NCBI RefSeq assembly: GCF_026341775.1 | Contig: NZ_JAPEOB010000001.1 | Location: 4,402,001-4,466,000 of the forward strand | Length of the DNA stretch: 64,000 bases | Direction: 5' to 3' | Origin: Streptomyces sp. NBC_00654 | GTDB taxonomy: Bacteria > Actinomycetota > Actinomycetes > Streptomycetales > Streptomycetaceae | Part shown: piece by piece, positions 9,713-27,081 of the stretch | Numbering within the stretch: the stretch's first letter is position 1 | Layout of the letters: each line of letters starts with the position of its first letter | The notes under the pieces: generated by a model | Database searches by the model: none | The model's input: only the letters and a program-made list of their open reading frames with translations | Told to the model about the DNA's origin: nothing | Translations under genes and position numbers: made by a program

Positions 9713-10159
9713 TCAGGCGAAGTCGGCCGCAGGCTCGATCCGGCCGAGGAGGTCCCGCCACTCCGCGGCCGGCAGGACGCGGGCGGCTCGGCGCAGGTCG
9801 ACGGGGTGGCCCGCGCCGAGGGACGCGGCGATCTCAAGGAGGACGAGGTGAGGGTCCATGGCGCCGGGCTCCAGGTCGTCGTCCTTGAGGACCTCCGGTG
9901 TGCGAAGGAGTTCCACGACCTGATCCCAGTCCATCAGCGTCGGGTGTTCGGCCGGTTCGAGGATCCCGGCCAGGGTGGGGTCGTGGGCGAACCGGCACAG
10001 CCAGTACCCGTCCTGGCAGTAGCCGAGAAGGATGATGGCCCGGCGCATTCGGTAGTTCCCGACACCGGCCAGTAGCTGCCTGGCGATCTGGACGCCTTCG
10101 GGCTGAGTCCGGCGGCGGGACGGCAACTTTTCGACGTCGGCGTCGAGTTCGATGGTCAT
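9713..10159 (-). CDS. hypothetical protein, 148 residues
   Basis: Soluble, acidic protein beginning MTIELDADVEKLPSRRRTQP. It contains one moderately hydrophobic stretch (MRRAIILLGYCQDGYWLCRF) that looks like a protein core, not a membrane segment. There are no catalytic motifs. Codon use is strongly GC3-biased as in its neighbours, which supports it being real. It is followed by another leftward hypothetical gene. The function is unknown. Confidence 0.65.
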   Translation of the reverse strand: MTIELDADVEKLPSRRRTQPEGVQIARQLLAGVGNYRMRRAIILLGYCQDGYWLCRFAHDPTLAGILEPAEHPTLMDWDQVVELLRTPEVLKDDDLEPGAMDPHLVLLEIAASLGAGHPVDLRRAARVLPAAEWRDLLGRIEPAADFA

Positions 10160-10287
10160 GTGGTCACTGTGCTGCCCATACGGGATCGGGCCTCCCGTAC
10201 ACGCCGGTCCTTCACCCGAAGAGGCGTCCCCGCACCAGCGATGACGTGCGTCGCGAGGAGCGGGAACGCGGCACAGGCCTCGACGGT

Positions 10288-10539
10288 TCAGGCCGGCCCG
10301 GCGTACGCGATAGCCAGCACGGTGAGCATGCGGGTGTCGTGGCCGAGGAGGATGACGGCGGTGGCGTGCCCCTGGGCGACGGTGCGGATGATGCCGTCGT
10401 CCTGACCGTAGGGCTCGGAATGCTCAAGCGGCCTCTGCTGCGCGTCGACCAGGACGAGTGAGAGGTCCCGGCGGGCAAGCTCGGGAAGCTGCTTGTACAT
10501 GTCGAAGACGTCCGGGGAAATGTGGAGCCGGTAGGTCAC
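10288..10539 (-). CDS. RelE/ParE-like small protein, possible toxin
   Basis: 83 residues from a GTG at 10539 that overlaps the stop of the upstream gene (GTGA). The product starts TYRLHISPDVFDMYKQLPE, has a helical middle and ends in strand-like segments (DDGIIRTVAQGHATAVILL, MLTVLAIAYA). This beta-alpha-alpha-beta order and length match the RelE/ParE fold. RelE-family toxins cut mRNA and ParE proteins poison gyrase; no catalytic residue pattern could be assigned here. The tight coupling to the upstream small gene supports a two-gene unit, with the presumed antitoxin first. Confidence 0.5.
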   Translation of the reverse strand: MTYRLHISPDVFDMYKQLPELARRDLSLVLVDAQQRPLEHSEPYGQDDGIIRTVAQGHATAVILLGHDTRMLTVLAIAYAGPA

Positions 10540-10880
10540 GCCGCGCCCTGGCCGTGACCCTGCGGGTCGGTGTCGTTGCTGTGGCGATGAGTAGGGGCGG
10601 TCTGGTCGTGGCCGGGTCCGGCGTCGCGCAGGATGTCCGCGGTCACGTCCCGCGCCCCGAGACCCTCGGGGAGAACACCGTGGGACTTCATGCTGACCCG
10701 GGCCGCCTCGATCATCGGCCGCGCCTTCTCGAGGTCCTCGGCCGCGGCCGCCCACCCGTCGAGCACGGCGGGCAGGGCATCGATCGGGGTCAGGTTGACG
10801 TCATGGAGGAGCTGCTGCCGTGATGCGGAGTGGGGGAGCGCGACATGCAGTCGGTCCACCGTCCAGTCCTCGTGCCCCAT
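10536..10880 (-). CDS. hypothetical partner of the RelE-like protein, possible antitoxin
   Basis: 114 residues starting MGHEDWTVDRLHVALPHSAS from an ATG at 10880. The product is mostly helical by composition, with a charged, His/Asp-rich C-terminal tail (APTHRHSNDTDPQGHGQGAA). No HTH, AbrB or Phd/YefM DNA-binding motif was recognised, so the antitoxin label rests only on position, size and the 4-bp overlap with the downstream gene. Alternatively both are a conserved hypothetical pair unrelated to toxin-antitoxin systems. Confidence 0.5.
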   Translation of the reverse strand: MGHEDWTVDRLHVALPHSASRQQLLHDVNLTPIDALPAVLDGWAAAAEDLEKARPMIEAARVSMKSHGVLPEGLGARDVTADILRDAGPGHDQTAPTHRHSNDTDPQGHGQGAA

Positions 10881-11735: not shown

Positions 11736-12365
11736 TCAGGCGGAATACGTACCGAAGTATGGGTCGGGTTCGCCTGTACAGGGGTCAATGCCGGCCTCCC
11801 ACCGGCGTCGTTCCTCGCGCCAGTGGAGGAAGTGCGGAGAGGGCTCTCCCCACAGGGAGGCATCGCTCAGTGGGCACTCGTCGAAGCCCTTGGCGAACAG
11901 GCGCCGAAGGAACTCCGCCATTCCGAAGTCGTAGATCTTCCAGTGGGGCCGGCCGTGCCGTTCCCATACGACAACGGGCCACTTGTCGGGGTCGTGGTCA
12001 ACGGTGAGCCAGCCAAGGATGTCGGCTCCGCAACTGACGCCCCAGGCGATGACGGAATCAGGACGGGAATCGACCCCAGCCGGTCCTCCTTCGGACTCCC
12101 ACATATGACGCATGGTGGCCGTCTCGGCCGCCATACCCCCGAAGTCTGGGCTGTCGGCCGGCCGCGTGCTCGCTTCAGGGGGCAGGATGCTCAGCGCGCC
12201 GTCGATGCCGCCGGCTCCGTACGTGCTCATGAACGCGATGTAGTCGGAGGGAAAGCCCGCTCCCCAAGCCCGCCGGACCGCAGCCCAGTCCGCCTGCTCA
12301 TCGGCCCCGTCATGCGGCGGCATTACCACTGTGAGTGCGGCGAGAGCTGTTCCTCGAGACGGCAT
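11736..12365 (-). CDS. SMI1/KNR4 (SUKH) family protein
   Basis: 209 residues from the ATG at 12365, which has an excellent ribosome-binding site (CGGAGGGGAC). The SUKH pattern is visible: WAAVRRAWGAGFPSDYIAFM, STYGAGGIDGALSILPP, then the beta-rich IAWGVSCGADILGWLTVD and WPVVVWERHG. SUKH proteins often act as immunity proteins against polymorphic toxins, yet no toxin gene is adjacent, so this is an orphan. An IS256 element is inserted about 120 bp upstream of the start and could have cut off an original promoter or partner. Confidence 0.8.
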   Translation of the reverse strand: MPSRGTALAALTVVMPPHDGADEQADWAAVRRAWGAGFPSDYIAFMSTYGAGGIDGALSILPPEASTRPADSPDFGGMAAETATMRHMWESEGGPAGVDSRPDSVIAWGVSCGADILGWLTVDHDPDKWPVVVWERHGRPHWKIYDFGMAEFLRRLFAKGFDECPLSDASLWGEPSPHFLHWREERRRWEAGIDPCTGEPDPYFGTYSA

Positions 12366-12475
12366 GTCCCCTCCGGTGTGATACGTCGTCCGATGCACGA
12401 TATCCGGGGCCACTGACACCGAGCCTCGTGCGCCTCGTCCGGGACGAGGCCTGCTGTCACCGGTCGTCAAGCCGG

Positions 12476-12483
12476 GCGACGAA
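12476..12483. repeat. left copy of an 8-bp target-site duplication
   Basis: GCGACGAA directly abuts the left inverted repeat of the IS256-family element and is repeated exactly at 13985-13992 on the other side. IS256-family elements produce 8-9 bp duplications, so this marks a recent insertion. Confidence 0.88.
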
Positions 12484-13984
12484 GGAAGTGTCATGAATCA
12501 GGTGGGCACTTACTCAGAAGGGACCCCTGATGGACGCGGAGAACGGTCACCTGATCGAGGACGCTGGCGGCGTGTCGGTTGCGGTGTTCGACAGGGACGT
12601 TGACGGTGCCGGTGTGACATCGAAGACGACGGCGGCGAGCCGGGAAGCGGCGGCCGCGCACGGGCTGAGCCCCGGGCTGATGGACGAGCTGGCCGAGCTC
12701 GCCGCCGGCAAGGTCCGCGACGGCGGGCTCAGGCTGATGGGCGAGGGCGGCCTGCTGGTCGAGCTCACCCGGCACCTGATGCAGGCCGCCGTCGAGGCGG
12801 AGATGGACCTGCACCTGGCCGAGGAGGCCGGCCGCACCGGCGGCCGGGGCTCGCGCTCGGGCGGCAACGCCCGCAACGGCCACCGGAGCCGGAAGGTGAT
12901 GACGGAGGTCGGCAGTGTGACGGTGCAGGTCCCCCGGGACCGGCTGGGCACCTTCACCTCCGGCCTGCTGCCGAAGTACGCGCGCCGCACCGGCGGCCTG
13001 GAGGAGATGGTCCTCTCGCTGACCGCGAAGGGGCTCACCTCCGGGGAGATCGTCGCGCATCTCGCCGAGACGTACGGCATGGAGACATCGAAGGAGACGG
13101 TCTCCACCATCACCGACAAGGCCCTGGACGCCATGGCCGACTGGCGCACGCGCCCGCTCGATCCGGTCTGTCCGGTCCTGTTCGTGGACTGCGTGAACGT
13201 GAAGATCAGAGACGGTGCGGTGGCGAACCGCCCCATCCACGTGGTCCTCGCGGTCACCTGCGACGGCCACCGCGAGATCCTCGGACTGTGGGCCGGGGAT
13301 GGCGGCGAGGGCGCCAAATACTGGCAGAACGTCCTTGCCGAGCTGCAGAACCGCGGCGTGAGGGACGTGCTCATGCTCGTCCGCGACGGCCTGAAGGGCC
13401 TGCCCGAGGCGGTCAACACCGTCTTCCCGCAGACGGTGGTCCAGCTCTGCATCGTTCACCTCATCCGCACCACGCTGAAGTACATCTCGCGCGCCGACTG
13501 GGACAAGGCCGCCCGCGACCTGCGGCCCGTCTACACCGCCGCCAACGAGGACGAGGACGAGGCCCTCGCCCGGCTCGCCGAGTTCGGCGAGAAATGGCAG
13601 GCCAAGTACCCGGCCGCGGTCCGTGCCTGGGAAAGGTCCTGGAGCGAGGTGGTGCCCTTCCTGGGCTTCCCACCGCCGATCCGGAAGATCATCTCGACCA
13701 CGAACGCGATCGAGAGTCTGAACGCGCGCTACCGGCGCTCGGTCAACGCCTGCGGGCATTTCCCGAACGAGACCGCTGCCCTCAAGCGTCTCTACCTCAC
13801 CACCCTCGCCCCCGACCCGACCGGGAAGGGCCGCAAGCGGTGGACCAGCCGCTGGAAGGAGGCCATGAACGCGTTCGACATCGCCTTCGACGGCCGCCTC
13901 TCGGCCGAACGTGTGTGAGCCAACCAGACCAACGAGAAACCTCTACGCCAACCGAGTGGTGAACACCGCTTTCGTGATACTCCC
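12484..13984 (+). mobile_element. complete IS256-family insertion sequence, about 1501 bp
   Basis: The element is bounded by imperfect terminal inverted repeats: the left end starts GGAAGTGTCATGAA and the complement of the right end starts GGGAGTATCACGAA. They match at 18 of the first 26 positions. Identical 8-bp duplications (GCGACGAA) flank it at 12476-12483 and 13985-13992. It carries one intact transposase gene. The clean ends and duplication imply a recent and probably mobile copy, unlike the other IS remnants in the window. Confidence 0.9.
12530..13918 (+). CDS. IS256-family transposase (Transposase_mut)
   Basis: 462 residues. The Mutator-type domain runs through most of the protein. 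N-terminal landmarks are DGGLRLMGEGGLLVELTRHL and RNGHRSRKVMTEVGSVTVQV. The DDE residues are assignable to PVLFVDCVNVKIRD, DVLMLVRDGLKGLPEAV and the Glu of TTNAIESLNARYRRS, the family signature. A zinc-ribbon-like cysteine set is absent, as usual. The frame is intact with inverted repeats on both sides. The open frame on the opposite strand is a GC-frame shadow. Confidence 0.95.
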   Translation: MDAENGHLIEDAGGVSVAVFDRDVDGAGVTSKTTAASREAAAAHGLSPGLMDELAELAAGKVRDGGLRLMGEGGLLVELTRHLMQAAVEAEMDLHLAEEAGRTGGRGSRSGGNARNGHRSRKVMTEVGSVTVQVPRDRLGTFTSGLLPKYARRTGGLEEMVLSLTAKGLTSGEIVAHLAETYGMETSKETVSTITDKALDAMADWRTRPLDPVCPVLFVDCVNVKIRDGAVANRPIHVVLAVTCDGHREILGLWAGDGGEGAKYWQNVLAELQNRGVRDVLMLVRDGLKGLPEAVNTVFPQTVVQLCIVHLIRTTLKYISRADWDKAARDLRPVYTAANEDEDEALARLAEFGEKWQAKYPAAVRAWERSWSEVVPFLGFPPPIRKIISTTNAIESLNARYRRSVNACGHFPNETAALKRLYLTTLAPDPTGKGRKRWTSRWKEAMNAFDIAFDGRLSAERV

Positions 13985-14211: not shown

Positions 14212-15600
14212 CTACCGAGGAGTTGCCTGCATCCGAAGCCTTCCCGGTCCGAACGACGCTCCCAGGACAGGGCGGGTCCGGTGATGGCCGGGCAGGTGTT
14301 TCAGGCTCCAGCGGGCGGTGATGTCGGCGAGGGCGAGGGTGGCCTCGGCCATCGCGAAGGTGTCACCGATGCACTTGCGGGCGCCGGTGGCGAAGGGGAT
14401 GAAGGCGTGTCGGGGTGGCTGGGGGCGCTCGGGGTCCCAGCGGTCGGGGTCGAAGGTTTCGGGATCGGTGTGGAGATCGGGGCGGTGGTGGATGAGGTAG
14501 GGGCTGTAGGCGAGGTTGGTGCCGGTGGGGAGTGGGTGCCCGCCGAGGTGAGTGTCATGGGTGACCGTGCGGGTGAGGAACCAGGCCGAGGGGTACAGAC
14601 GGAGAGTTTCGGTGATGATGCGTCCGGTCAGCTCCAGGCGGGGCAGATCCGCATGGGAGGCCGGGGCTCCGCGCAGGACGGTGTCGAGCTCGCTGTGCAG
14701 CCGCTGTTCGATCGCGGGGTGGCGGGCCAGCAGGTCCAATGCCCAGGCGAGGGTGCTGGCCGTCGTCTCCGTCCCGGCCAGGAAGACGGTGAGGATCGTG
14801 TCGCTGATCTCCGCATCCGTCATGCCGCGGCCGCCGTCCTCAAGATCGCGGGCTGTGACCAGGGCCGAGAGCAGGTCGCCGTGGTCGGTGCCGTCGGCAC
14901 GCCGATCGGCGATGATCCGGTCGCAGGTGTGACGCAGGCGGGTATGTGCGCGCTGATGGGCACGGTTGTCCGGAGTGGGGAGCCGGTCCAGTGGCGGCGC
15001 CAGGAGCATGCGCCGGAAGAGCCCGCCCGCGATCGTCCTGACGTCGTCGATGAGCTGTCCGAACTCGGCTGCGGGCAGGGAGTTGGAGAACAGAGTGGCG
15101 GCCGTGACTCGGGAGCTGATCGACATCATCTCGGTGGGCACGGCCAGGGTTCGTCCCGGCGTCCAGGAGCCGGTCACCTCCTCGACGCAGGCGGTCATGG
15201 TTCGTGCGTAGCCGGGAAGACGGTCAGGATGGAAGGCGGGCTGGGTCAGTCGGCGCAGCCGACGGTGGGCATGGTGCGGGCAACTGCTGAGACCGTCACC
15301 GAGAACGTCACGGAAGCGGTCGAACACCGGTCCGCCCTTGTCGAAGAGACGGTCGTCCACCAGGGCCTGACGGGTCAGCTCCGGATCACAGATCACGACC
15401 AGTGGGACTGGACCCATGTGGACGCGGACCAATGGTCCGTGGGCGGGCAGCGATTTCAGGAAGGCCAACGGGTCCCGTGCCAAGGACACCAGGTGGCCTA
15501 TCAGAGGCCACGCGTGGGGGGCCGGGGGGATCAGCCGTAGATCTCTCACCCGTACTCCCGATGTCCTCCTGGCCCCGCCCTTCGGGGTGATCTCGTTCAC
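14212..15600 (-). CDS. cytochrome P450 of the terpene-oxidising type
   Basis: 462 residues from a GTG whose GTGA overlaps the stop of the upstream gene, so the pair is translationally coupled. The I-helix oxygen-binding motif (FLAGTETTAS), the ExxR motif (ETLRLYP) and the heme-ligand loop (FATGARKCIG) are all intact. The N-terminus (PHAWPLIGHLVSLARDPLAF) and RLFDKGGPVFDRFRDVLG closely follow the P450s linked to pentalenene and similar sesquiterpenes (CYP183 type). It would hydroxylate or oxidise a hydrophobic scaffold using ferredoxin-delivered electrons. The partner gene may make that scaffold. No ferredoxin gene is adjacent. Confidence 0.88.
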   Translation of the reverse strand: MNEITPKGGARRTSGVRVRDLRLIPPAPHAWPLIGHLVSLARDPLAFLKSLPAHGPLVRVHMGPVPLVVICDPELTRQALVDDRLFDKGGPVFDRFRDVLGDGLSSCPHHAHRRLRRLTQPAFHPDRLPGYARTMTACVEEVTGSWTPGRTLAVPTEMMSISSRVTAATLFSNSLPAAEFGQLIDDVRTIAGGLFRRMLLAPPLDRLPTPDNRAHQRAHTRLRHTCDRIIADRRADGTDHGDLLSALVTARDLEDGGRGMTDAEISDTILTVFLAGTETTASTLAWALDLLARHPAIEQRLHSELDTVLRGAPASHADLPRLELTGRIITETLRLYPSAWFLTRTVTHDTHLGGHPLPTGTNLAYSPYLIHHRPDLHTDPETFDPDRWDPERPQPPRHAFIPFATGARKCIGDTFAMAEATLALADITARWSLKHLPGHHRTRPVLGASFGPGRLRMQATPR

Positions 15601-17594
15601 AGCACTTGTCCTCCGTGGGCCGGACGGCATCCTTCTTGGTCAGGGTCGGCCGTCCCGGCCGGGGCGTAGGCCTGGTCCTGCGGGGTCAGGGCGGTGACGA
15701 TTCCGTCGATGAGCCGGCCGCACGGGCCGATTCCGCTGAGTTCCGCGCTGCTTGTCAGCGTGCCGATGAAGGCTCGGCGGATGGGGATTCCCTGCAGGGG
15801 AGGCAGGGAGTAGCTGTCCCAGACAGCGTGGTAGGTGTCGATCGACAGGACGGTGTCGGCGTTGCCGGGCGGGGTGGGGGCGGTTCCGGGGCCGGCGATG
15901 ATGTGCGACCAGATGCGGGCTGTCAGGCCGGCGAGTCGGGTGACGACGCCGTGAAGGGCGGAGGTGCCGACGGCGGTGGTGTCGATGGTGGGGGCGGCGG
16001 CGGTGAGGAACAGCTCACGCCAATGGGGCGCCAGGTGCGGCAGTTCGTCGGGCGTGGCCGTGGCACAGGCGCTGATGGCCTTGTGTGCCGCGGCGGCACA
16101 GGCGCTGGTGATGGCGGTACTGGTGCCGGCGGTGACGACGCGTCGTGCGGCACGTTCGGCGAGCTGACCGGCCCAGTGCGTTTCGGGTGTGTCGTCCTCG
16201 TACCACAGCGGTTCCCATCCGAGGCCGTGGAGCATGTCGCCGTCGGTCAGTCTCGTCCGCGCGACCGATCCGAGCCGTGGCCTCTCCCTGCTCAGGGAGA
16301 ACTCCCGCTGAAACTCGTCTCCCGTGGTGGACAGCGCGTGCAGCTGGGCGCGGACATCGTAGCGGGGGGTCACCAGGTACCAGGCGAGGGCGCCCATGGC
16401 CGTCTCGCCCACCTCCTCGTGCCCGGCCTCTCCGCAGTCGCACGCCAGGACGTCATCGACCACGCGGGCGCACGCGGTGGCGTATCCGGTGAGTGCCCGC
16501 ACCCCTCCTGCGGCGACGGCCAGCAGCGCCTCGTTACAGGTTTCCGCGTGGGCATAGTCGGTGAGGATGCCGATGATTTCGTTGTAGCGGTAGGAGCTGT
16601 CGATCGCCCGGCGGATCCGGTGGCAGCGGAACGAGGCGTCGAAGGTTCCGGCGCCGTCGTCGTCGAGCATCCGGTACGGCGGTGAGCCGAAGCCCAGACG
16701 GAAATAGGGCAGCATTGCCGCGTCCCACCACCGGGCCCACCTGTACTCGTGCGGGGTCGGTGCACCACCCGCGTCGGCCAGGAACCGATGCGGGTCGGGG
16801 AGCGGGGCGGAAGCACCCCGTAGGGCGTCCTTGGCGAGCATCACCCCACACGTCAGGACGGTCTCCTGGAGTGCGAGGTCGGCGGCACGCCCGGCCACGG
16901 CAACGGTCCCCTCGGCAGCGGCCTTGACGTGCAGGTCCCGGCCACCGACCCCGGAGTCGTCCGAGGCACCGGCGTAGTCGATGGCGCTGGCGAGGATGAA
17001 CACGGAGCCGAACAGGTCCAGGAACTCGCCGGTTCCCCGAGGGAGCCAGAACGTGTTGATGCTGCCCCAGTAGTCACGAACCGCCATCAACGCGGCCTGG
17101 GTGCCGTCCATGGCGTGCCGCGCGACGTACTCGGCGATGATCGGCCCGGCCTCACCACCCTTGGCGGGAATGGCGGCGGCGAGCGCGGCCAGCCGGTCCC
17201 CCTCGGGATTGCCGGGGCCGGCCAGGATCTGCCGGACGGCCTCCGTGGCGGCCAGGATCGCCATCGGACCGCTCTCCTGGACGCTCCTGGTGACCTCGTC
17301 GCTGAACAGCGCGTCCATGAACTCTGCGCAGAGACGGTCGCCGTCCGGTGAGCCGGGGATGCCCGGTGACTCGTACGGCCGGTAATCGGTGGCGGTCACG
17401 ACCTGTGCCCCATCCAGCGCGGGGTGTCCGGGCGGTCCCATGGTCAGCCGCGCCAGCCTCTGCCGGCACGCCTCGTCGGAGAGGCCGTCGGCCAGCCGTG
17501 CGAGGCCGGCCGGCACCGGACCACGACGCTGCCGGACCACAAACGGGTCGGGGAACCGATCCAGCCACCCCCGCGCCCCTTCCTGACCACCCAT
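15597..17594 (-). CDS. 665-residue protein with terpene-cyclase-like motifs, function unproven
   Basis: The ATG at 17594 follows GGAGGGTG. The product is soluble and mostly helical. Around residues 330-415 it has the order expected near the C-terminus of class I terpene synthases: RRAID (possible diphosphate-sensing Arg, 328-329), N338EIIGILTD346 (N-x3-G-x3-D, compare the NSE triad N-x3-S-x3-E), a helix CARVVDDVLAC, and 73 residues after Asn338 an RY pair (AWYLVTPRYD, 411-412). About 135 residues upstream, an Asp (SAIDYAGASDD, D206) sits where DDxxD would be, but the motif is degenerate. A 170-residue N-terminal and a 230-residue C-terminal extension are unusual. Coupling to a terpene-type P450 supports the idea; it remains inference. 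Confidence 0.55.
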   Translation of the reverse strand: MGGQEGARGWLDRFPDPFVVRQRRGPVPAGLARLADGLSDEACRQRLARLTMGPPGHPALDGAQVVTATDYRPYESPGIPGSPDGDRLCAEFMDALFSDEVTRSVQESGPMAILAATEAVRQILAGPGNPEGDRLAALAAAIPAKGGEAGPIIAEYVARHAMDGTQAALMAVRDYWGSINTFWLPRGTGEFLDLFGSVFILASAIDYAGASDDSGVGGRDLHVKAAAEGTVAVAGRAADLALQETVLTCGVMLAKDALRGASAPLPDPHRFLADAGGAPTPHEYRWARWWDAAMLPYFRLGFGSPPYRMLDDDGAGTFDASFRCHRIRRAIDSSYRYNEIIGILTDYAHAETCNEALLAVAAGGVRALTGYATACARVVDDVLACDCGEAGHEEVGETAMGALAWYLVTPRYDVRAQLHALSTTGDEFQREFSLSRERPRLGSVARTRLTDGDMLHGLGWEPLWYEDDTPETHWAGQLAERAARRVVTAGTSTAITSACAAAAHKAISACATATPDELPHLAPHWRELFLTAAAPTIDTTAVGTSALHGVVTRLAGLTARIWSHIIAGPGTAPTPPGNADTVLSIDTYHAVWDSYSLPPLQGIPIRRAFIGTLTSSAELSGIGPCGRLIDGIVTALTPQDQAYAPAGTADPDQEGCRPAHGGQVL

Positions 17595-18725: not shown

Positions 18726-19145
18726 ATGCCCTTCCAACCCGCGCTGCTGGACCGTTTGGAGCGCGCCGTCCGGCGTTACGGCGCCGGCACGCCGACGGAC
18801 CGAGTGGAACTCGCGTCCGCGATTTCCCCTCTTGGGGTCGGCCTCGACCCGGATTACGCCGAGTTCGTCGAGCGTTTCGGGGGTTGCTATGTCGGCGTCC
18901 CCGTGTACGGGCTGCGGAACTCGGACCTGCTGGAGCACATGAGCGTCGTAGACCTCACCCTGCGCTTCCGCCGCGACGGATGGCCCGGCACCGACCGGGG
19001 ACTCGTCGTGTCCTTCGACCCCGCAGGCAACCCCCTCGTGCTCACTCCCGGTGGCCCCGTGACGAGCTACGACCACGACGCGGGGCGTGCGTACGAGCTC
19101 GCCCAGGGGTTCGCGGCGCTGCTCGACCAGCACACCGAGGACTGA
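18726..19145 (+). CDS. SMI1/KNR4 (SUKH) family protein, 139 residues
   Basis: The product starts MPFQPALLDRLERAVRRYGA. Its core is the SUKH pattern GVGLDPDYAEFVERFGGCYV followed by VPVYGLRNSDLLEHMSVVDL and the C-terminal strand-helix part (GLVVSFDPAGNPLVL, YELAQGFAALLDQH). SUKH members commonly neutralise bacterial toxins, but neither neighbour looks like a toxin. It is monocistronic and about 5 kb from the other SUKH gene (11736-12365); the two are not close in sequence. Confidence 0.8.
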   Translation: MPFQPALLDRLERAVRRYGAGTPTDRVELASAISPLGVGLDPDYAEFVERFGGCYVGVPVYGLRNSDLLEHMSVVDLTLRFRRDGWPGTDRGLVVSFDPAGNPLVLTPGGPVTSYDHDAGRAYELAQGFAALLDQHTED

Positions 19146-26265: not shown

Positions 26266-27081
26266 TCATGGTTTGCGGGCGACGAGTCCCCACTGGTCGA
26301 CGGGTACCGGCTCCTCGTCGGCCGTCGGCCGCCACTGCGAGATCGATACGAAGCCCGGCTCGACCATTTCCAGACCCTCGGCGCATCCGGTGATCTCTTC
26401 CGGTTCCCGCACCAGGTAGGGCGGGTTGTCGCCCGATGCGTACGCCTTCTCGGCCGCGAGCGTGGCGGGTGTCTTCACCGTGTCGCACAGGACGAGACAG
26501 CTCCCGGACGGCATACGGGACATGTATCTCTGGACCACTTCGATTCCCTCGGCCGGGGCCAGGTGTCCCAGGGTCGACAGCAGCATCACGGCGACCGGCT
26601 CGGACAGGTCCAGCGTCTTGGAGGCCGCGTCCACCACCGCGTCCGTGTCGGACAGGTCCGCCTCCACGTAGTCCGTCCGGCCCTCAGGAGCGCTGGTCAG
26701 CAATGCCGCCGCGTGGACCAGCACGATGGGGTCGTTGTCCACGTAGACGATACGGGCCTGGGGCACGATGCTCTGCGCCACCTCATGGGTGCTGTTCTCC
26801 ACCGGCAGGCCTGTTCCCACATCCAGGAACTGACGCACGCCCAGCCCTGCAAGGTACCGGACAGCACGGGCCTGGAACGCACGCGAGGCGCGGGCGATGT
26901 CGACCGTCTGCGGGTAGGCCGCGCTCACCACGTCGGCCAGCTCCCGGTCGACCGGGTAGTTGTCCTTCCCGCCCAGCCACGCGTTCCACACCCGAGCGGA
27001 ATGCGGCACGTCCGATCGGATCAGCCTACGGAAGTCAGCGTCGCTGCTGCTCAAAGCGCACTCCATGCTTGTCATATTCAT
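26266..27081 (-). CDS. SAM-dependent methyltransferase, DUF574 type
   Basis: 271 residues. The family is recognised by VPHSARVWNAWLGGKDNYPV, the SAM-binding loop RQFLDVGTGLPVENSTHEVA, then RIVYVDNDPIVLVHAAALL and EADLSDTDAVVDAA. These proteins are numerous in Streptomyces and often lie near regulatory or secondary-metabolism genes, but their substrates are largely unknown. Three close ATG codons (27081, 27075, 27066) could each be the start; the first is given. It is monocistronic. Confidence 0.85.
   Translation of the reverse strand: MNMTSMECALSSSDADFRRLIRSDVPHSARVWNAWLGGKDNYPVDRELADVVSAAYPQTVDIARASRAFQARAVRYLAGLGVRQFLDVGTGLPVENSTHEVAQSIVPQARIVYVDNDPIVLVHAAALLTSAPEGRTDYVEADLSDTDAVVDAASKTLDLSEPVAVMLLSTLGHLAPAEGIEVVQRYMSRMPSGSCLVLCDTVKTPATLAAEKAYASGDNPPYLVREPEEITGCAEGLEMVEPGFVSISQWRPTADEEPVPVDQWGLVARKP

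Follow-up and report, generated by a model that had tools for sequence, protein, structure and literature searches.

Does a large protein that family profiles fail to place make a terpene for the cytochrome P450 encoded next to it? This question is raised by a 64,000-nucleotide (nt) stretch of DNA from Streptomyces sp. NBC_00654 (assembly GCF_026341775.1, contig NZ_JAPEOB010000001.1, forward-strand positions 4,402,001 to 4,466,000), hereafter called the window, in which the gene for a 665-residue protein, here named X, is coupled to a P450 gene. An original prediction, made from the sequence alone, took X for a divergent terpene synthase, and searches of X against Pfam and NCBIfam gave no match. 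Judged by its predicted fold, the positions of its motifs and its gene context, X would belong to the class I superfamily with modified versions of the strict metal motifs. In our view, X is very likely a class I terpene synthase whose family lies outside Pfam and NCBIfam and whose product, in the clade of the window, the coupled P450 would oxidize.

Predicted fold of X

Structure prediction gave X the alpha-bundle of class I terpene synthases and not another fold, which, together with the conserved motif positions described below, supports the proposal of a divergent synthase with a class I fold. A first fold built from 11 sequences had a predicted local distance difference test (pLDDT) score of 47.5 and returned meaningless Foldseek rows; a good model was built after 25 more relatives had been found. 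VIA-align 2 was the only one of the structure searches that brought up terpene synthases. Most of its bacterial class I rows span the same stretch of X (Table 1), and some end earlier or extend to residues 458-634. In the predicted helices, D206 ends helix 189-206, N338 to D346 lie within helix 325-348, and R411 follows helix 392-408.

The same ranking contains DabA (6vkz), an N-prenyltransferase by its title. Alternatively, X could be a prenyltransferase of class I fold that ionizes a prenyl diphosphate and, like DabA, hands the prenyl group to another molecule. We regard this as unlikely: the 30 rows above DabA are all terpene synthases, an effector-like Ala or Gly follows the candidate sensor in all 36 family rows, and no acceptor gene was recognized among the neighbors annotated, a weak point given that these were only some of the neighbors.

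Other searches brought up no terpene synthases. Foldseek on the good model matched mostly transporters, with none of 167 matches at E ≤ 0.001, and a profile search of solved structures read up to E 10 yielded seven rows, of which the best had E 0.051 and not one was an isoprenoid enzyme. The hidden Markov model (HMM) search against terpene synthase families that had been suggested as a check came out negative, and membership in PF19086 was rejected, with 0 of 31 family members (X and near copies included) matching at E ≤ 5. Polyprenyl synthetase (PF00348) was rejected as well, with none of the 31 members matching at E ≤ 5 and an hhalign score of 17.2 against five such proteins, near the shuffle mean. 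Canonical terpene synthases and prenyl synthases are fold relatives. By hhalign, the canonical synthases scored 16.3 against the same five prenyl synthases, which make a thin profile.

Conserved motif positions

Class I enzymes carry a DDXX(X)D motif, an NSE motif of the form ND(L,I,V)XSXX(K,R)E, a diphosphate sensor Arg usually 46 residues before the NSE motif, an Asn 8 or 9 residues past it, and an RY pair with a Trp six residues before it, as set out in excerpts of PMC8450962 and PMC5082573; the former excerpt also names R178 and G182 of selinadiene synthase. We counted conservation over 36 family rows, which include X and several near copies and are not independent events. P0005 (truncated), P0029 (mispredicted, 834 amino acids [aa]) and P0031 (frameshifted end) were left out of this set and of alignment A7; L006, a near copy of P0008, stands outside A7 and inside the 36-row set, and P0007 was never aligned.

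All residues singled out by the original prediction were found in their places, namely, N338, G342, D346, R411-Y412 (73 residues after N338), R328-R329 and D206 (132 residues before N338). Conservation at the three key positions also held, with Asn or Asp at position 338 (N in 28, D in 8) and D346 and R411 in 36/36 rows. Within the NSE equivalent, position 339 is Glu in 29 rows and Asp in 7, and position 342 is Asp in 29 and Gly in 7. Set against the broader NSE/DTE consensus (N,D)D(L,I,V)X(S,T)XXXE, the family thus retains the positions but has other residues for the Ser and the Glu. Since G342 is limited to the seven rows of the window's own clade, the predicted motif set as a whole, though present in X, occurs in only 7/36 rows. 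The Asp-rich segment shows a D-x5-D spacing at the expected place of the Asp motif. Position 405 is Trp in 20 rows, Phe in 14 and another residue in 2, and position 412 is Tyr in 33 and Trp in 3. R288, 50 residues before N338, was aligned by hhalign to the sensor Arg and is a likelier diphosphate sensor than the R328-R329 pair, which we rejected in that role. In selinadiene synthase, the spacing from sensor to effector includes a linker residue. Further published anchors fared less well: a Pro 21 residues before the Asp motif occurs in 13/36 rows (X among them), the Leu/Val/Ile anchor 14 before it is present as Leu or Ile in 25/36, and the expected pair of an Arg 34 residues ahead of the sensor and a Glu 14 residues past it was not found in the 36 rows (no Arg at 254, no Glu or Asp at 302).

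Table 1. Coordinates of X, the coupled P450 gene and the conserved segments of X within the window
Feature	Position	Strand	Remarks
X, 665-aa candidate class I terpene synthase	15597..17594	-	No Pfam/NCBIfam match
Cytochrome P450	14212..15630	-	462 aa (GTG 15600, with GGAGG) or 472 aa (ATG 15630)
Stretch spanned by most bacterial class I terpene synthase rows, residues 71-421	16332..17384	-	VIA-align 2
Asp-rich segment D206-Y-x4-D212-D213	16956..16979	-	C-terminal end of predicted helix; D206 and D212 in 36/36 rows
R288-W-W-D291-A292, candidate diphosphate sensor and effector position	16719..16733	-	R in 35/36; position 292 A or G in 36/36
N338-E339-I-x-G342-x3-D346 (NSE equivalent), with E351 and N354	16533..16583	-	N354, 8 past motif, in 35/36
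C385-x-C387-x4-H392, candidate CCCH metal site together with C324 (16623-16625)	16419..16442	-	36/36 rows
RY pair R411-Y412, with W/F405 six before	16359..16364	-	R411 in 36/36
Further helical region, residues 470-636	15687..16187	-	Family-conserved residues; outside most bacterial terpene synthase matches

When X was shuffled 20,000 times, a pattern built from the originally predicted motif set turned up in 15 shuffles. It also matched 9 of 693 open frames of at least 300 aa (from loci including duplicates); 8 of these were X or close relatives, and the ninth lay in L067, which had been fetched as a PF19086 match. A family-plus-anchor pattern that includes R-x-x-D/E-A/G matched 29/36 family rows, none of 20,000 shuffles and, among the same open frames, X copies only. 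It matched 0/23 canonical synthases because they do not have in common the acidic residue that follows R288, and it was therefore not used as a class I signature.

Compared with the canonical bacterial synthases (PF19086; epi-isozizaene, selinadiene and pentalenene synthases), X shares the predicted alpha-bundle and the order and approximate spacing of the Asp-rich segment, sensor Arg, NSE equivalent, +8 Asn, Trp/Phe and RY pair. It differs in having no family-level sequence match to them, in its length (665 aa, compared with roughly 350 to 490 aa for the open frames of the single-domain synthases fetched), in the D-x5-D segment, in Asp or Gly for the NSE Ser and Asp for the NSE Glu, and in a further C-terminal region and the invariant C324, C385, C387 and H392. 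Deviant motifs are compatible with activity, according to an excerpt of PMC8450962: NDLTV for DDXX(X)D, loss of the sensor Arg and Phe for Trp are seen in active enzymes (SmTS1), and spiroalbatene synthase is active with Gly for the NSE Ser, as in the window clade. As described there, SmTS1 and spiroalbatene synthase are type I synthases that deviate at single positions, unlike X, which lacks detectable family-level similarity.

Gene context of X and its relatives

The X gene starts at ATG 17594, with GGAGG 6 nt upstream (17605-17601), and stops at TGA 15599-15597. The GTG start of the P450 gene (15600-15598) shares GTGA with this stop, confirming the overlap reported earlier, and is preceded by GGAGG nine nt upstream; ATG 15630 offers a longer alternative. 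The best NCBIfam model of the P450 is pentalenene oxygenase (NF045812, 426.8 bits), in line with the likeness claimed for it, although the curated cutoff of 800 bits is not reached; albaflavenone monooxygenase (NF051859) follows with 374 bits against a cutoff of 700. These are the two best models for the L007 P450 as well, and again the score lies below the curated cutoff (348 of 700 bits). We describe the window protein as a P450 of the pentalenene oxygenase neighborhood, and because of the cutoffs neither P450 is filed as one of these enzymes. No second X copy was found in the same genome.

Eleven intact loci were compared: the window, L002, L003, L047, L005, L006, L007, L010 (with L013/L014), L015, L046 (whose X gene has no internal stop) and L080. 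The suggestion that homologs always pair with a P450 proved incorrect, with an adjacent P450 in 5/11 (window, L002, L003, L047, L007), a prenyl-diphosphate synthase within two genes instead in 5/11 (L005, L006, L010, L015, L046), and neither by tblastn with the queries used on the 12.3-kb contig of L080. A two-gene terpenoid pathway, judged by gene order, would fit the window clade only. The tree places the loci in five distinct groups, of which two are wholly or partly P450 linked; its deep forks are poorly supported.

Several of the P450-free loci carry isoprenoid supply genes. L005 and L006 have the order DXS, GcpE (IspG), prenyl synthase, LytB (IspH) and X, and L013 has a diphosphomevalonate decarboxylase-like gene, a GHMP kinase, HMG-CoA reductase and HMG-CoA synthase, followed by prenyl synthase and X. 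L046 additionally holds SQHop-type and squalene/phytoene synthase genes on the other strand, 3 to 6 kb off. L084 has a related operon of GcpE, prenyl synthase and LytB, after which come an SQHop-type protein and two canonical PF19086 synthases; a short fragment resembling X lies close by. Here, a cyclase-type gene takes the place held by X in L005. The terpenoid cluster of L084 (6546-16001) also has a frame that partly matches LytB and, next to it, a flavin adenine dinucleotide (FAD) oxidoreductase. The prenyl synthases of L005, L010 and L046 best match a model for mycobacterial farnesyl/geranyl diphosphate synthase (266 to 272 of 600 bits, under the cutoff), and the best solved relatives of the L010 enzyme are geranylgeranyl and farnesyl diphosphate synthases. 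With matches of both the farnesyl/geranyl and geranylgeranyl types, the substrate of X may be C15 or C20.

Catalytic or noncatalytic X

When a hand-chosen stretch of X was compared with canonical synthases by hhalign, the match was weak in absolute terms, with P values of 0.015 (0.036 for full-length X and 0.07 in a first run) and a probability of at most 2.9%. No motif was given to hhalign, yet the 23 references, out of 25 canonical synthases tried, had been kept for an NSE motif with an upstream Asp motif (L062 and L067 were dropped). Measured against the strict consensus, the metal motifs are degenerate; in the tree, a long branch (1.35 changes per column) leads to the window clade, and broken copies occur in several relatives. 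These three points favor the alternative that X is a noncatalytic descendant of the fold, which might serve the P450 or the prenyl synthase as a partner or scaffold, for example.

In the hhalign controls, 2 of 300 block shuffles scored as high as X and none covered 200 columns with a score of at least 20; in the earlier run, 1 of 60 shuffles scored as high, and the reversed X stretch reached 15.8. As for a noncatalytic X, this would leave unexplained why D206, D212, D346 and R411 are invariant and R288 nearly so (35 of 36 rows), and no other cyclase was seen among the scanned genes, which comprise the four upstream of X in L005 and, in L013/L010, four mevalonate genes and the prenyl synthase. 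We hold such a role to be highly improbable.

As a class I terpene synthase, X would most likely bind a prenyl diphosphate within the alpha-bundle through Mg2+ held by D206, D212/D213 and N338, position 342 and D346, with R288 and R411-Y412 contacting the diphosphate. Putative Mg2+-dependent turnover would then ionize and cyclize the substrate to a terpene, which in the window clade the coupled P450 would oxidize. In other clades, dedicated methylerythritol phosphate (MEP) or mevalonate genes and the prenyl-diphosphate synthase would supply the substrate.

Candidate metal site and C-terminal region

C324, C385, C387 and H392 are the only Cys/His columns invariant in all 36 rows. In the predicted helices, C324 stands at the start of helix 325-348, C385 and C387 just past helix 371-384, and H392 at the start of helix 392-408; these helix ends should share one side of the up-down bundle, opposite the metal motifs, and we infer a structural zinc site there. 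The long N- and C-terminal extensions proposed for X are borne out at one end: the fold match begins at residue 71, leaving only about 70 N-terminal residues, while a conserved helical region lies past the bundle. A search for an internal repeat between this C-terminal region and the bundle gave no signal. With a little less than even confidence, we propose that the family is a separate class I branch of actinomycetes, Bacteroidota and fungi, in which Asp replaces both the Ser and the Glu of the NSE motif, a CCCH zinc site is built in beneath the active-site bundle and a conserved C-terminal helical domain is peculiar to the family, making terpenes through pathways unseen by current family libraries.

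Distribution of the X family

When X was used as the query of a protein search, five close relatives and a more distant one at 38% came up, the near relatives coming from Streptomyces. A scan of GTDB contigs gave six loci, among which L005 and L006 belong to Streptomyces (41%) and L007 to Actinosynnema pretiosum (36%), and a profile of distant members matched 26 proteins, 25 of them new. Their sources include Nocardia neocaledoniensis, Spirillospora, a Pseudonocardiaceae metagenome-assembled genome, Chitinophaga solisilvae and the fungi Hirsutella rhossiliensis and Aspergillus nanangensis. Three fungal X-like proteins are encoded on contigs between 0.86 and 14 Mb long, and simple contamination is thus less likely. 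Where a name is given, the relatives are called "hypothetical" or "uncharacterized", except P0007, named cytochrome P450. L012/G230 (E 4e-4) was rejected as a member, being a misread frame without the motifs.

The X family is rare and patchy. Matches were found in 9/392 Streptomyces genomes (5 full length, 4 fragments), in 5/394 genomes at the family level with an earlier profile (one spurious, one a fragment), and in 1/394 and 1/396 genomes at the class and phylum levels, each time the window's own genome only. Broken forms of X occur among relatives of the window clade: L004/L082 (with an internal deletion in L004) and L011, a short N-terminal remnant. L083 joins the N-terminal 177 residues of X to the tail of the P450, and P0007 is an X fragment fused to a P450.

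Among the papers listed in searches of open-license PMC literature, none was recognized as describing the X family, and the excerpts of PMC9543850, PMC10509563, PMC11109268, PMC7093587 and PMC6604706 do not mention X-like proteins. The gromomycin proteins GroF and GroH, as described in excerpts of PMC12105684 and PMC13010261, resemble X in being hypothetical proteins of a terpenoid cluster missed by cluster-finding tools, in a likeness to terpene synthases seen by homology modeling, and in a cluster with a prenyl synthase and a P450. They differ in belonging to a guanidine-containing triterpene pathway with Rieske genes, and are set beside X by description only.

Terpene synthases are found by family profiles, and the X family keeps the fold and motif positions without detectable profile similarity; terpenoid clusters that have gone unseen are therefore implied. 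Some of these would carry isoprenoid supply operons in well-studied genera, and products of bacterial and fungal relatives may be overlooked. The family is also a natural case in which to ask how much drift the class I metal motifs tolerate and whether a structural metal and an additional domain can be accommodated by the class I fold.

Surroundings of the gene pair

A Mutator-family transposase (12530-13918, plus strand; PF00872, 365 bits) lies directly downstream of the X-P450 pair, and the relatives L046 and L047 are carried by linear plasmids, in the case of L046 with transposases around it; the pair may be mobile. Beyond the transposase as seen from the pair, small open reading frames (ORFs; 9715-10880, minus strand) are about 86% alike to genes immediately upstream of X in L003 (8288-9473) and L047 (12671-13823); the two ORFs tested had no Pfam match. 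Two SUKH/SMI1-KNR4-type proteins with weak Pfam matches flank the pair (11736-12494, minus strand, and 18726-19145, plus strand). Farther away, the window holds a PF04672 methyltransferase (26266-27081) and, about 10.5 kb from X, a second P450 (28124-29377, minus strand), whose top NCBIfam model is pentalenolactone synthase with 252 bits against a cutoff of 700.
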